A DNA stretch of 64,000 bases from positions 1 through 64,000 of the forward strand of contig JAAYCR010000034.1 of assembly GCA_012729675.1 (NCBI GenBank), given 5' to 3'. The notes under the pieces were generated by a model. The model searched no databases. It was not told the DNA's origin and saw only the letters and a program-made list of their open reading frames with translations. This document shows, one piece after another, positions 3,542-9,210 of this stretch; the stretch's first letter is position 1, and each line of letters begins with the position of its first letter. The stretch comes from Phycisphaerae bacterium. GTDB taxonomy: Bacteria > Planctomycetota > Phycisphaerae > Sedimentisphaerales > Anaerohalosphaeraceae. The position numbers and the translations under genes are program-made.

Positions 3542-4788
3542 GTTGCGCCCTGATTGCGGCGGATGATGTCGCGTCCGGCATCGGCGATGCGGCCGGCATA
3601 ATCGGCATCCGACAGGCATTTTTGAACCGCTGTGAGCAGTTCTTCCGCGTTTTTTATCTCAATCGCTCCGCCGCCGGAGAGCAGGGCGTCCACCGTTTGT
3701 TTGAAATTGAAGGTGTGCGGCCCGAAGAGTGTGCATTTGCCCAAGGCCGCCGGCTCCATCATATCCGAGCCGCCCATCGGCGTGAGGGTTCGCCCGACAA
3801 AGACGACTGTCGCCAAGGCATAAAACTTTTTCAGGTCGCCCATTGTGTCGCCGAGAATGACCGTCGGCTTTCCGCCGGTGCAGGAGTCCATCTTCTTGAG
3901 TTCACTGTATCGCACAAATTCCAACCCCGCCTGTTCGATCAGTGCGGCGACCTCGTCAAACCGTTCGGGTTTTCGCGGAACAATCGCCAGCCGCAGGTCT
4001 TCGAAGGCCGGCTGCTGACGGAGTCCCCTGAAGACCTCCAGACCGATGGCTTCCTCGCCCGGGCCGGTTCCCCCCAAGACCCATAGGCGTTCTTTGCCGA
4101 GATTGATCTGTTCGACCAGTCGTGCCGTGCCGGGCACTTCGCCGTCGATCTGGGCGGTGTCATACTTGAGCGAGCCGGTCACCTGTACCCGTTCGGCCGG
4201 GCAGCCTAATGCGATGAAGCGTTCGGCATATTCAGGGGTCTGTGCGAGCACCAGGCCGACACGGCTGAACATCGGTCGAATCAAGCGGCGGATTTTGAGA
4301 TATTTGGGAAAACTGCCGTCGCTGATGCGGCCGTTGACCACCGCCACCGGAATTTGTCTGTCGGCCGCGAATCGTGCCAGATTCGGCCAGACCTCCAACT
4401 CCATCAGGCAGATGATGGCGGGGTTGATGTTTGTGATCGCCCGGCTCATCACGCAGGATAGGTCAAACGGAAAGTAAAACACATCGCAGTCGCTCTGGTA
4501 GATCGCCTTGGCTCGGGCCAGGCCGGTGTCGGTCGTGGCGGAAACGGCCACTGGCATATTGGGATGTTGGCGGTGCAGGGCGTCAATGAGCGTGCGAGCG
4601 GCATTGACCTCGCCGACGCTGACGGCGTGAATCCAGATGCAGGGCTGTTGGGGGGTGCGACGGCGGATGTCGCCCAGCCGCTGTCCCCAGCCGCCTCGAT
4701 AGCGTTTGTGGGCCAGTCGGCGGTATAGAATCACCGGGCTGTAGGCCGCAATCGCAAGTATGTAGAGAAAATCAATCGCATATCGCAT
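3487..4788 (-). CDS. waaA: 3-deoxy-D-manno-octulosonic acid (Kdo) transferase
   Basis: A 433-residue GT30 glycosyltransferase that moves Kdo from CMP-Kdo to lipid A at the inner face of the cytoplasmic membrane. It has an N-terminal membrane anchor (residues 3-22), the catalytic Glu60 in HAVSVGE, a donor-site region with IVPRKPERF, and the C-terminal GGSDMMEPAALGKCTLFGPHTFNF signature. ATG 4788 is preceded by AAGGAT at proper spacing. Together with lpxB (22534-23727) it shows the organism makes Kdo-lipid A. The divergent neighbour is the Rrf2 regulator. Confidence 0.93.
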   Translation of the reverse strand: MRYAIDFLYILAIAAYSPVILYRRLAHKRYRGGWGQRLGDIRRRTPQQPCIWIHAVSVGEVNAARTLIDALHRQHPNMPVAVSATTDTGLARAKAIYQSDCDVFYFPFDLSCVMSRAITNINPAIICLMELEVWPNLARFAADRQIPVAVVNGRISDGSFPKYLKIRRLIRPMFSRVGLVLAQTPEYAERFIALGCPAERVQVTGSLKYDTAQIDGEVPGTARLVEQINLGKERLWVLGGTGPGEEAIGLEVFRGLRQQPAFEDLRLAIVPRKPERFDEVAALIEQAGLEFVRYSELKKMDSCTGGKPTVILGDTMGDLKKFYALATVVFVGRTLTPMGGSDMMEPAALGKCTLFGPHTFNFKQTVDALLSGGGAIEIKNAEELLTAVQKCLSDADYAGRIADAGRDIIRRNQGATQKSLDALFHNFSVAVTG

Positions 4789-4925
4789 GGATATATCCTT
4801 GGCTGCATCGATAACGGGTAAAGCATAGTCCAAAATGCTTGTTAGGTCAATTCTATTAACACTCACACGTTGGTTTCTGTGGGCAATCGCTATAATATTT
4901 CGAAAATATTTATTTATTTTTAGGG

Positions 4926-4954
4926 TTGACTCGTTTTCAAGGATACATTTATAT
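4926..4954 (+). promoter_or_regulatory. Sigma-70-type promoter of the Rrf2 gene
   Basis: -35 TTGACT (4926-4931), a 17-base spacer and -10 TTATAT (4949-4954). The predicted transcription start is near 4961, inside the inverted repeat that follows. Confidence 0.6.
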
Positions 4955-4972
4955 ACGACTATTCGAGTCGTA
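4954..4972 (+). promoter_or_regulatory. IscR-type operator overlapping the transcription start
   Basis: A perfect inverted repeat, TACGACT-ATTCG-AGTCGTA. Its core GACT-N5-AGTC matches the architecture of E. coli IscR type 1 sites, and it sits on the expected +1 of the rrf2 transcript. Autorepression by the Rrf2 protein is inferred. The half-site GACTATTC recurs before the sulfate-binding-protein remnant at 5471-5478. Confidence 0.6.
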
Positions 4973-4986
4973 CTAAGGATTGAAAT

Positions 4987-5451
4987 ATGAAAGTATCGAT
5001 GAAAACCGATTATGCGTTTCGCGTTCTGTTTACGCTGGTAGAGCATTACCAGCGGGGGCCGATCCCTATCCGCGAACTGGCTCGGCGGAATGAGGTACCG
5101 AAGCGATTTCTGGAGCAGATTATGCTTGAAATGAAGGCCAAGGGTTGGGTCGCGAGCATTATGGGCAAGCAGGGGGGGTATGTGCTTTCCAAGTCGCCCG
5201 ATAAAATCACGGCAGGTGCAGTTATAAGGCATTTTTATGGGGTATTGGCGCCCATCGGATGCGTGTCGGTGATCCAATATGAGCCGTGCAGCCAAGAGCC
5301 GGTGTGCCGGTTTCGGCGGCTGTTTCTGGATGTCCGCAATCATGCGGCTCGGCTGATGGATTCGGCGACGCTGGACAGTATTTATCAGGGCAAACCCGTT
5401 CGGCAGGAAGAGGTGTTTAATATGGAATTGACCGGCGGGGCGGGGATTTGA
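4987..5451 (+). CDS. Rrf2-family regulator, IscR/CymR-like with three cysteines
   Basis: A 154-residue Rrf2 regulator. The N-terminal winged HTH reads MKTDYAFRVLFTLVEHY...IPIRELARRNEVPKRFLEQIM, with the wing GKQGGYVLSKSP. Three cysteines, Cys92, Cys101 and Cys107, fall in the loop that holds the [2Fe-2S] cluster in IscR (Cys92, 98, 104), so cluster-based sensing is plausible. It precedes a former sulfate-uptake gene and cysK, and an IscR-type operator overlaps its own promoter. It is therefore probably the controller of cysteine or Fe-S supply. The RBS AAGGAT lies upstream of ATG 4987. Whether it senses Fe-S status, cysteine or O-acetylserine/CysK (as CymR does) is open. Confidence 0.88.
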   Translation: MKVSMKTDYAFRVLFTLVEHYQRGPIPIRELARRNEVPKRFLEQIMLEMKAKGWVASIMGKQGGYVLSKSPDKITAGAVIRHFYGVLAPIGCVSVIQYEPCSQEPVCRFRRLFLDVRNHAARLMDSATLDSIYQGKPVRQEEVFNMELTGGAGI

Positions 5452-5465
5452 TTTTTTTGTTTATA

Positions 5466-5497
5466 AATAGGACTATTCCTATTGAACCTATAGGGTT
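5466..5497 (+). promoter_or_regulatory. Operator-like inverted repeats upstream of the sbp remnant/cysK
   Basis: AATAGG-ACTATT-CCTATT is a perfect inverted repeat (5466-5483), followed by AACC-TATAG-GGTT (5485-5497). The octamer GACTATTC is shared with the operator at 4957-4964. It is likely a second Rrf2 binding site controlling the sbp-cysK transcript. Confidence 0.45.
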
Positions 5498-5529
5498 AAT
5501 CGAATCGAGTTGTCTCGAGGGGAAGATAT

Positions 5530-5736
5530 ATGAAGATATCGAACACTATCGGATGGGGTGTTGCAGTGGCGGTGCTTGTGGCCGCGGCGGTCTTCACTGC
5601 CGGTTGTGATCGCGACAAGGACGGGCAGGCCGTGACGCTGCTGAATGTCTCGTATGACCCGACGCGGGAGTTATATCAGGACTTCAACAAGTATATTTTT
5701 CCGCACACAACGCAGTGTTTCGCGAAGACTATATGA
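5530..5736 (+). pseudogene. Truncated sulfate-binding protein (N-terminus only)
   Basis: The frame starts with a good RBS (AGGGGAAG) and a lipoprotein-like signal ending in FTAGC. Residues 36-53 (VTLLNVSYDPTRELYQDF) are the hallmark start of periplasmic sulfate/thiosulfate-binding proteins (Sbp/CysP), which normally run about 330 residues. After DFNK the frame switches to unrelated sequence and stops at residue 68. So the ligand-binding body is gone, apparently by deletion, and cysK follows 38 bases later. The promoter and RBS still look intact and probably serve cysK. Confidence 0.75.
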
Positions 5737-5774
5737 TCTAATAAACCCTTTTGATAAACAGAAAGGAACATATC

Positions 5775-6722
5775 ATGGCGGATTATGCTGAAAACATTTT
5801 GCAGACAGTAGGCGGCACGCCGCTGGTCCGGGTCAATAAATTGATCTCGGGCGCGACGGTGCTGGCAAAACTCGAAAGCCGCAATCCGCTGGCGTCGGTC
5901 AAAGACCGCATCGGCGTATCGATGATTGAGGCAGCGGAAAAGGCCGGCTACCTTAACGACAAGACCGTCATCATCGAGCCGACCAGCGGCAATACCGGCA
6001 TCGCGCTGGCGTTTGTGTGCGCGGCCAAAGGGTATCGGCTGCTGTTGACGATGCCGGAGTCGATGAGCCTGGAGCGGCGTAAGGTGCTCAAGGCCCTCGG
6101 GGCCGAGCTGGTGCTGACGCCGGCGGCCAGCGGGATGAAAGGGGCGATTGCCACGGCGCAGGAAATTCTTGAGGCCGAGAAGAATGCGTTTATGCCACAG
6201 CAGTTTGAGAACCCGGCCAACCCGGAAGTTCATCGGCGTACGACCGGCGAGGAGATTTGGGCCGGTACGGACGGCAAGATCGATTATCTCGTGTCGGGCG
6301 TCGGTACTGGCGGCACGATCACGGGCGTCGCGGAAGTCATCAAGTCGCGCAAACCGGAGTTTAATGCGGTGGCGGTCGAACCGGCGCAAAGCCCGGTCTT
6401 GACGCAGACGCTGGCCGGTCAGGAGCTTAAGCCCGGGCCGCACAAGATTCAGGGCATTGGCGCGGGGTTTGTGCCGAAGGTGCTGAACCTAAAGATCGTC
6501 GATGAGGTCATCGCTGTCGATCAGGACGAGGCAATTGACTGGGCGCGTCGGGCGGCCAAGCTCGAAGGCTTGTTCGTCGGTCTGTCGTCCGGCGCTGCGC
6601 TGCGGGCGGCCGATATCATTGCCTCCCGGCCGGAAAACAAAGGCAAGCTGATTGTGGCGATTATCCCCAGCTTCGGCGAGCGGTACTTGTCGTCGGCGCT
6701 GTTTGCGGATATCATAACCTAA
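5775..6722 (+). CDS. cysK: Cysteine synthase A (O-acetylserine sulfhydrylase)
   Basis: A 315-residue fold-type II PLP enzyme making L-cysteine from O-acetyl-L-serine and sulfide. PLP lysine Lys43 is in [11 protein letters not shown], the substrate loop TSGNTG spans 70-75, and the glycine-rich phosphate loop is [10 protein letters not shown]. The C-terminal [10 protein letters not shown] is typical. ATG 5775 is preceded by AAAGGAA. It is full length between two gene remnants (sulfate-binding protein upstream, C-terminus of a Cys/Met-metabolism PLP enzyme downstream), as if it alone survived in a former sulfur-assimilation operon. It could use sulfide directly from an anoxic environment. It is probably controlled by the upstream Rrf2 protein. 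Confidence 0.95.
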
Positions 6723-6827
6723 ATCAAGATTAAAAATCAGTACTGTCCGGTCATAAGTCGAATAAGGGCAGTTGGTTATAGTTTTGTCGTTCTTTAAAAA
6801 CATACGGATTTTCTGTAAGTGCTTGTT

Positions 6828-6968
6828 TTAGCGGTGTGCCACCGCGCGATGAGTCCCGAAGAAAAGCAGAAAATCGGCATCTCCAAAGGTACGATCCGGC
6901 TGTCCATCGGGATTGAGGATGTGGACGATTTGATTGCCGATCTCCAAAATGCACTGGATAGGATATAA
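6828..6968 (+). pseudogene. C-terminal remnant of a Cys/Met-metabolism PLP enzyme (MetB/MetC/MetY type)
   Basis: Reading frame 6828-6968 gives HRAMSPEEKQKIGI, then SKGTIRLSIGIEDVDDLIAD and the end LQNALDRI. This matches the conserved C-terminus of cystathionine gamma-synthase/O-acetylhomoserine sulfhydrylase enzymes (normally about 390-430 residues). Nothing upstream (6723-6827) matches the rest of the enzyme and there is no plausible start, so only about 46 codons survive. Its stop TAA overlaps the mnmA ATG (TAATG). The original arrangement cysK-metY-mnmA has thus been shortened by a deletion. Confidence 0.75.
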
Positions 6969-8056
6969 TGGGTACAGCCTCAGGCAAGAATAGGGCGATT
7001 GTGGCGCTTAGCGGCGGAGTGGATTCGGCGGCGGCGGCGGTCTTGCTCTGTCAGGCCGGGCTGGAGGTGACGGGGGTGTATATCTGCCTGCAGCAGGAAC
7101 ACGGCGAGACGGCAGGGGGACGCAAGTCGTGTTGCTCGCCGCAGGATGCTGCCGATGCCGCTGCGATTGCGTCACGGCTGGGGATTGATTTTCAGGTGGT
7201 CGATGGCAATGACGAGATGACGCGGATTAAAGACGCCTTTGCGCAGGCCTACGCCGACGGGCGGACACCGAACCCCTGTATTGTGTGCAATCAGTTGATT
7301 AAATTCGGAAAACTCTTTGAAATCGCTGATGAGATCGAGGCGTATTCTATCGCGACCGGTCATTATGCGCAAATTGTCGGCGAAGACGGCCACGCGGCGC
7401 TGCATCGCGCGATGGCGAAGGACAAAGATCAGTCGTATGTGCTGTTTGGCATCGACCGTTCTCGGCTGGGGCGTGTGCGGTTTCCGCTGGGGCGGTTGTC
7501 GAGCAAAGAGCAGGCGCGGGCGATTGTCAAAGACGCCGGGCTAAGTGTCCACGACAAGCCGGACAGTCAGGAGATATGTTTTGTGCCGGATGGGGACTAT
7601 CGGGCGATTCTGAAAGGGCGGGCCGAGCGCGCCTTGCGGCCGGGGCCGATTTTGGATGAGGCGGGCAAAGTGCTGGGGACGCACGACGGTTGCGGGTTGT
7701 TTACCATCGGCCAGCGGCGCGGAATTCGGATCGCCGCCGCCGAGCCGCTGTATGTGCTGTCCATCGACCCGCAGCAGCGTAGTATCACCATTGGGCCGAA
7801 GGTGTCGCTGGCGTGTTGCGGACTGCGGGCCGGCGGAGCCAACTGGCTGGCGGATGTGCCGGAGACGTTTGATTGTACGATCCAGATTCGGTACAATCAT
7901 CGCGGCGCGGCAGGGACGGTACGGCGGCTGGATGATGAGTGCTTTGAGGTTGCCTTTGATGAGCCGGTCGATGCCGTGACGCCGGGGCAGGCGGCGGTAC
8001 TGTATGACGGCGATAAAGTGCTTGGCGGAGGCTGGATAGACAGTGCTGTGAAGTAA
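6968..8056 (+). CDS. mnmA: tRNA-specific 2-thiouridylase
   Basis: A 362-residue enzyme that thiolates U34 of tRNA-Lys/Glu/Gln, using persulfide sulfur and ATP. The N-terminal P-loop-like motif is LSGGVDSAAAAVLL, the catalytic Cys is in TPNPCIVCN, and the second Cys is in the SQEICFVPDGDY segment. The C-terminal beta-barrel domain is present (GLFTIGQRRGIRI). Length is normal. The start overlaps the stop of the enzyme remnant upstream, so it was probably translationally coupled to that gene. The normal sulfur donor is a cysteine desulfurase; the nearest candidate in the window (8932-9210) is a remnant. MnmG at 23720-25561 modifies the same base. Confidence 0.95.
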   Translation: MGTASGKNRAIVALSGGVDSAAAAVLLCQAGLEVTGVYICLQQEHGETAGGRKSCCSPQDAADAAAIASRLGIDFQVVDGNDEMTRIKDAFAQAYADGRTPNPCIVCNQLIKFGKLFEIADEIEAYSIATGHYAQIVGEDGHAALHRAMAKDKDQSYVLFGIDRSRLGRVRFPLGRLSSKEQARAIVKDAGLSVHDKPDSQEICFVPDGDYRAILKGRAERALRPGPILDEAGKVLGTHDGCGLFTIGQRRGIRIAAAEPLYVLSIDPQQRSITIGPKVSLACCGLRAGGANWLADVPETFDCTIQIRYNHRGAAGTVRRLDDECFEVAFDEPVDAVTPGQAAVLYDGDKVLGGGWIDSAVK

Positions 8057-8162: not shown

Positions 8163-8942
8163 ATGATATCAAAACGATTTTCACGGCAGATTGCGTTTGC
8201 GGCGTTTGGGACAGACGGACAGGTTCGGCTGGGCAAAGGCCGGGCGATGGTGGTCGGCGTCGGCGGTTTAGGGTCGTGGGTTGCCGAACTGCTGGTGCGG
8301 GCGGGGGTCGGGATGCTGCGGATTTGCGATGACGACAGCGTGGAACTATCCAACCTCCACCGGCAGGCGCTGTATGTCGAGGCCGATGCCGCGCAATGGC
8401 CGTTGAAAGCGGAGGCGGCCGCGAAGCGACTGAGTGCGATTAACAGCGATTGTCAAATTGAGCCGTTTTGCGAGCGGATTGATCGGCTGACGATTCACCG
8501 GGCGGCCAAAGAGATCGAAGTCATTATTGATGCGACGGATAATTTCGAGACGCGGTTTTTGATCAACGACTATGCCGTCAAATACAGTGTTCCGTGGGTG
8601 TCGGCGGGCGTGATGGAAGGCGAAGGGCAGGTGATGACGCTGATGCCTGGCACAACGCCGTGCCTGCGGTGCATTCTGCCGTCGGCGCCGTCCTGCTGTG
8701 CGGGCGATTCCAATGCCTGCTTTCAGTTCGGCGTGCTGGGGCCGGTGGTTGCCGCAATGGCGTCGATGCAGGCGGTCGAGGCGGTCAAACTCCTGGCCGA
8801 CTTTGCCGACAAGGCCAGTCCTTGCTTGACCAAATTCGATTTGTGGAATAATACTCTTCAGCGTATCCCGTTGTCCACATTGGGGCCGGTCGCAGACTGC
8901 CCCTGCTGCGGACGGAAGGAGTTTGACTATCTTGAGCCTTGA
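8163..8942 (+). CDS. HesA/MoeB/ThiF-family E1-like adenylyltransferase
   Basis: A 259-residue E1-like enzyme that adenylates the C-terminus of a ubiquitin-fold sulfur carrier (ThiS, MoaD or similar). The ATP-binding motif is VVGVGGLGSWVAELLVRAG, the adenylate residues are in DDSVELSNLHRQ, and the Asp motif is DATDNFETRFLINDY. Zinc cysteines pair as CLRC (middle) and CPCC (C-terminus), as in MoeB/ThiF. No ThiS/MoaD-like carrier is nearby. It is directly followed by the cysteine desulfurase remnant, whose probable TTG start overlaps its end, so the pair formerly looked like a sulfur-transfer operon with mnmA. Confidence 0.88.
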   Translation: MISKRFSRQIAFAAFGTDGQVRLGKGRAMVVGVGGLGSWVAELLVRAGVGMLRICDDDSVELSNLHRQALYVEADAAQWPLKAEAAAKRLSAINSDCQIEPFCERIDRLTIHRAAKEIEVIIDATDNFETRFLINDYAVKYSVPWVSAGVMEGEGQVMTLMPGTTPCLRCILPSAPSCCAGDSNACFQFGVLGPVVAAMASMQAVEAVKLLADFADKASPCLTKFDLWNNTLQRIPLSTLGPVADCPCCGRKEFDYLEP

Positions 8943-9210
8943 ATCGCAGCCCATTTATCTGGATTACAACGCCACCACACCGCTGGATCGGGCGGCGCTG
9001 TCGGCGCACAAGATATACGGCCCCACCGGCTCGGCTTGTGACTCGGCATCGGGTGACTCCAATTATGTGCTCAAGGCCATCGGGGCAGAACAGGACAGCA
9101 TCGCCGGTGCTGTCCGATTCAGCCTCGGGCGGTTTACTCGCTTAGACGACATTGAGACGGCCATTGCCGCCATCATCAAGGCAGTCGAGCAGATGCGAAA
9201 CAATGTTTAA
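8932..9210 (+). pseudogene. Cysteine desulfurase (IscS/NifS) collapsed by internal deletions
   Basis: The frame encodes about 92 residues against about 390 for IscS/NifS. It keeps, in correct order, the N-terminus (IYLDYNATTPLD), the PLP-lysine motif (SAHKIYGP), the active-site cysteine motif (GSACDSASG) and the C-terminus (AVRFSLGRFT), while the sequence between them is missing. At least two deletions are needed: one between TTPLD and SAHK, one between GP and GSAC. The frame stays open, but no PLP fold can form. A TTG at 8932 has AAGGAG ten bases upstream; a TTG at 8923 is also possible. Confidence 0.75.

Follow-up and report, generated by a model that had tools for sequence, protein, structure and literature searches.

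The Rrf2 regulator encoded in the window (the whole 64,000-nucleotide stretch that was analysed, from a Phycisphaerae bacterium) is best read as an autoregulating, probably cluster-dependent repressor that governs the adjacent sulfur-acquisition operon through the site at 4954-4972. We put the probability of this reading at roughly 70%. The organism belongs to the Sedimentisphaerales, an order of the Planctomycetota in the class Phycisphaerae. Operators and ligand residues are conserved among its relatives, in which the positions of the operators and the genes linked to them are directly observed.

The site is a perfect palindrome, TACGACT-ATTCG-AGTCGTA, lying between a sigma70-type promoter and the Rrf2 gene (Table 1). 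The first-pass annotation, whose span of 4926-4972 comprises the -35, the spacer, the -10 and the palindrome, had recognized the GACT-N5-AGTC core of IscR type 1 sites and its overlap with the predicted transcription start of the gene, and both observations hold. Written as GAC-N7-GTC, this core has the same spacing as CCGACTAAATCAGTCAAG in the iscR promoter of E. coli K-12. The -35/-10 pattern was recovered by script in 5/5 family orthologs, with a spacer of 17 nt in four and 18 nt in genome G013; in each of the five, the -10 ends exactly at operator 1, 30-32 nt before the ATG. The promoter is absent from the listing of a general promoter scan of 4700-5900, and we accept it because the same arrangement recurs in all five family orthologs.

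Table 1 Features of the rrf2 locus in the window.
Feature	Position	Strand	Evidence or detail
Sigma70-type promoter	4926..4954	+	-35 TTGACT 4926-4931, 17-nt spacer, -10 TTATAT 4949-4954
Operator 1, TACGACT-ATTCG-AGTCGTA	4954..4972	+	Abuts -10, spans presumed +1
Rrf2 regulator, 154 aa; Asp8, Arg12, Cys92, Cys101, Cys107	4987..5451	+	Pfam PF02082, 103.9 bits
Operator 2 counterpart by position, decayed (TAGGACTATTCCTATTGAA)	5468..5486	+	9/14 matches, p 0.18
sbp (sulfate-binding protein) remnant, 68-aa open frame	5530..5736	+	NCBIfam PRK10752 2.3e-07
cysK, cysteine synthase A	5775..6722	+	TIGR01139, 436 bits over cut-off; synteny
CGS-type (Cys/Met metabolism) PLP enzyme, C-terminal remnant	6840..6956	+	tblastn 51% over residues 347-385

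Palindromy by itself proves little, since the 64-kb window holds 11 perfect 7-5-7 inverted repeats. Chance was a real possibility on that count and is ruled out by conservation in 5/5 family orthologs. Across the five, window included, operator 1 matches 14, 13, 13, 12 and 12 of the 14 fixed bases, each with p at the floor of 1/301 in shuffles; the upstream DNA is otherwise hardly alignable, with the -10 and the palindrome preserved. A riboswitch at the locus was rejected for lack of any Rfam match in 4700-7100. A T run follows the rrf2 stop codon at 5449-5460, as it does in G013, G125, FKSedi and many loci of a distant group described below.

A half-site before the sbp/cysK transcript had also been noticed in the first pass. 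It is indeed present (GACTATTC, 5471-5478), but as an operator it reaches just 9 of 14 matches (p = 0.18 against shuffles), and the "sbp" is a remnant. The decayed site that contains it occupies the position of an intact second site in three relatives, with 12/14 matches each (p 0.003-0.007), placed before sbp in G013, a TauE-family permease in G006 and a porin-sbp-cysT-cysW-cysA series in G004. The counterpart in G035 is degraded (7 matches, p 0.98). Within the family, site 2 is thus intact wherever a transporter follows it (3/3 genomes) and degraded in both genomes that have none (2/2), the window and G035. The intact sites in relatives show the window half-site to be left over from a real second operator at that position: it is not callable from the window DNA by itself, and comparison with relatives places a putative operator there. 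The motif does therefore precede other sulfur genes in related genomes, as the earlier proposal required; they are sbp, TauE, porin-sbp-cysTWA and cysK operons.

The genes behind the operators can be compared with those of a sister genome of the same genus, G034, which carries sbp (cut by a contig edge), cysT, cysW, cysA and cysK, the last beginning 23 nt past the end of the cysA match. Just 25 matching residues of sbp remain in the window genome. By this comparison, the window appears to have lost most of sbp and all of cysTWA and to have retained rrf2 and cysK. The CGS-type remnant sits between cysK and mnmA.

Further downstream, in a 95-aa open frame (8923-9210, + strand), the beginning of an IscS/NifS-type cysteine desulfurase is joined to its C-terminal portion. 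Homologs are near full length in the sisters G034, G035 and G036, and another complete copy lies on contig C19 of the window genome. Three broken sulfur genes (the sbp, CGS-type and iscS-like remnants) thus fall within 4 kb of window sequence, which may reflect either real decay or an assembly fault. The second cysK of the window genome (G000:C19:46489-47196) has an internal deletion relative to sister G035 and other relatives; the window cysK would then be the sole intact cysK found in the genome.

Close orthologs of the regulator (72-87% identity) occur in 4/38 other genomes of the family, and orthologs at 49-73% identity elsewhere in the phylum, beyond the family, the order and the class. 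The searches covered 161 order-level, 397 class-level and 392 phylum-level genomes, many of the genomes compared being drafts of uncultured species; 150, 386 and 351, respectively, gave no match at the set thresholds. Linkage was scored against a reference list of sbp, cysT/W/A, cysK, the CGS-type enzyme and TauE. A sulfur gene comes next on the same strand in 17 of the 21 clade loci, which include the window, the family orthologs and G126; in G004 it comes after the porin. In G799, sbp-cysTWA lies just upstream of rrf2, and in G545 3.2 kb downstream. G562 has the operator and none of the reference-list sulfur genes within 16 kb, and D8MAG has solely distant, weak matches to them. In one complete genome, the window-type Rrf2 is present a second time, at 50% identity (G758:C1:3605554-3606012). 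A distant sister group in the same phylum (22 loci, 38-45% identity), from genomes that we suspect to be anammox relatives, has as its next gene an SsuA-type sulfonate-binding protein in 18/22 loci and a DASS/sodium:sulfate symporter (SLC13) in 1/22, with neither in 3/22.

Both groups show an operator on either side of the gene. Counts were made in 100-base regions and compared with dinucleotide shuffles; as the loci are related, the counts are not independent. With at least 8/10 matches to ACGAC-N7-GTCGT, the 20 loci of the main clade yield 9 upstream regions (0.60 expected) and 7 downstream (0.65 expected). The 22 distant loci yield 13 upstream regions (0.70 expected) and 19 downstream (0.60 expected) for TCTAC-N7-GTAGA. 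Control spacings of 5, 8 and 9 stay near chance. Spacing 6 is raised in the main clade (5/20 and 4/20 against about 0.8 expected), its matches lying mostly elsewhere and those of G125 and G133 close to the expected site. No operator 1 is recognisable in G231, G799, G545, G725, G758 and D8MAG, and the half-site of G373/G441 differs from the main-clade operator. The main-clade counts leave out G126 (gene cut at a contig end), G136, G102, G064 and G548, as well as G255 and G331, which are without the cysteines.

Control seems to be local. Among the matches listed with up to two mismatches in the five family genomes, those outside rrf2 loci fall mostly inside long open frames. Inspection covered the loci returned and 20 fetched stretches, a subset of the listed places. 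The Fe-S side of the first-pass expectation found no counterpart in this material, no isc/suf gene being recognised behind the motif outside rrf2 loci at the places inspected, and a genome-wide regulon is unsupported by them. Among the places listed for three distant-group genomes (G703, G694, G563), the exact operator is found solely at the rrf2 locus, with one-mismatch matches elsewhere inside open frames. A perfect match in G004 (C54:38906), before a prfA-like gene (named by eye), is followed by a T run; because of that run, we read it as a probable terminator. A looser site in G013 (C39:3363-3381, TAGGACTAAATTAGTCATA) shares the GACT-N5-AGTC frame; the gene that it precedes encodes another Rrf2 and is close to an hcp-like gene (named by eye). 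The frame may be common to several Rrf2 types in this lineage.

The protein passes the superfamily models PF02082 (103.9 bits, cut-off 30) and TIGR00738 (98.8, cut-off 73.3) and fails the equivalog models for IscR (57.8 bits, cut-off 207.55), CymR (80.8, cut-off 195) and NsrR (40.9, cut-off 182). CymR is nevertheless the best named NCBIfam match. The best PDB match is Thermincola potens IscR, 4cic (E 4e-18), and CymR is also a top structural relative. In the tree, the window clade (97/97) joins the distant group (92/78) and lies outside a branch (98/87) that unites E. coli IscR, T. potens IscR, B. subtilis CymR and paralog B, a second Rrf2 of the window genome. The main clade was also recovered in an earlier tree that omitted NsrR. 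The long branches of E. coli NsrR, very remote at 3.65, and of E. coli IscR leave the exact placement of these two unsure.

Cys92, Cys101 and Cys107, already pointed out in the first pass, are spaced by X8 and X5 and are invariant, together with Asp8 and Arg12, in 20/20 main-clade and 22/22 distant proteins, 42/42 in total. According to passages of PMC5411485, holo-NsrR of S. coelicolor holds its cluster by three Cys and by an Asp8 that comes from the other subunit and forms a salt bridge with Arg12, and the E. coli IscR ligands include Cys104 and His107. The column of the IscR His has Arg in 20/20 main-clade proteins, and Arg or Lys over both clades. An NsrR-like ligand set, three Cys with Asp8/Arg12, is thus predicted in a sulfur regulator. 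The window protein shares with E. coli IscR the Rrf2 fold, three Cys, the GAC-N7-GTC frame of a type 1 operator and, as predicted, autoregulation at its own promoter. It differs in its place outside the IscR branch, in Arg for the His ligand, in the outer operator bases ACGAC/GTCGT and in its link to sulfur acquisition rather than Fe-S assembly. In the solved T. potens construct, Ser occupies the three Cys columns, and their X8/X5 spacing is the same; that protein has His at position 8 and Gln at 12 and groups with CymR and IscR. We conclude from tree and alignment that the window Rrf2 is not an IscR but a member of a separate Planctomycetota clade. The IscR-like sulfur regulator outside Proteobacteria that had been proposed thus keeps its operator at its own promoter and its link to sulfur uptake and cysteine synthesis, but not its IscR-like protein. 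That a true IscR ortholog governs both Fe-S assembly and sulfur uptake here is highly improbable: the operator frame is that of the E. coli iscR promoter, but the branch (98/87), the missing His ligand and the motif search described above all speak against it.

Two other known systems bear on the signal. CymR of Bacillus and Staphylococcus controls cysteine and sulfur genes, as is proposed for the window Rrf2, and in a CymR-like mechanism (passages of PMC2940859) the partner CysK would set DNA binding and report O-acetylserine or cysteine, the cysteines of the regulator being secondary or thiol sensors. The profile match (80.8 bits against 57.8 for IscR, both below cut-off) and the structural likeness fit this, as does a CysK relative as the next listed gene in 6/21 clade loci (G035, G355, G177, FKSedi, G555 and, after the sbp remnant, the window). 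We nevertheless consider it unlikely. CymR, described as without a cluster in passages of PMC9338935, is also without the three Cys and Asp8, whereas these and Arg12 are invariant in window-type proteins; CymR groups with paralog B and not with the window clade, and transporter-linked clade loci outnumber the cysK-linked ones. The second system, NsrR (Streptomyces, E. coli), shares three Cys, Asp8 and Arg12, the set matching that of the S. coelicolor protein (passages of PMC5411485). The window protein differs from NsrR in its very distant sequence, in its X8/X5 Cys spacing and in linked genes for sulfur instead of NO. A sensor of NO or redox state with an NsrR-type [4Fe-4S] cluster might control sulfur genes incidentally, for example for rebuilding damaged Fe-S clusters. 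This appears quite improbable in view of the remoteness of E. coli NsrR in the tree and of the linked genes, none of which, among those recognised, serves NO detoxification, a weak test as the reference set contained no such gene.

Paralog B, on contig C19, precedes cysK and cysE (the latter named by eye). It is present in 36/39 family genomes, against 5/39 for the window-type Rrf2, and a crude motif test finds a cysK-like start after it in 27/32 loci. It has Arg8 in 32/32 and an operator of its own, approximately CCTAC-N7-GTAGG, in 14/32 loci against 0.20 expected; the copy of the window genome is not among the clear ones.

The cluster-dependent repressor that we favour would work as follows. 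The position of operator 1 at +1 points to a dimer that represses sterically, regulates its own gene and acts locally on the following operon: an Rrf2 dimer would bind ACGAC-N7-GTCGT just downstream of the -10 and block RNA polymerase at the rrf2 promoter. In most relatives, the repressor would also bind a second copy and so control the next operon, with sulfate import, sulfonate import, cysteine synthase or a cystathionine/homocysteine-type enzyme as targets. An Fe-S cluster is probably ligated by the three Cys together with Asp8 from the partner subunit. With sulfur, cysteine or Fe-S clusters in good supply, the cluster-bearing form would repress; in shortage, loss of the cluster would turn uptake and synthesis on, a direction taken by analogy from IscR and NsrR. 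Binding, repression, the cluster and the signal, which may be Fe-S status, cysteine or NO, are all inferred. In the window genome, the transport genes would have been lost and the second operator would have decayed, leaving rrf2 and cysK.

For Firmicutes (CymR) and Proteobacteria, the control of sulfur assimilation is well documented. Searches of openly licensed full texts, including passages of PMC4055776, PMC9338935, PMC2940859, PMC4618611 and PMC5411485, brought up no Rrf2 regulator of sulfur genes described for Planctomycetota; elsewhere, such a regulon may have been predicted. A phylum-wide family, to which we give slightly less than even odds, would use an Asp8-ligated cluster to read the Fe-S or sulfur status of the cell and paired local operators to gate the acquisition of sulfate, sulfonate and cysteine. 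On a fixed N7 frame, divergence of the operator letters from clade to clade (ACGAC, TCTAC, CCTAC) would separate paralogs in one genome. If the repressor reading is right, complete genomes of the phylum would offer operators and targets that can be tested. That reading would also join three features known separately among Rrf2 proteins, an IscR-type operator frame, CymR-type targets and NsrR-type ligands, and so bear on how these regulators diverge, and it would offer a natural case of two paralogous regulators held apart by small half-site changes.
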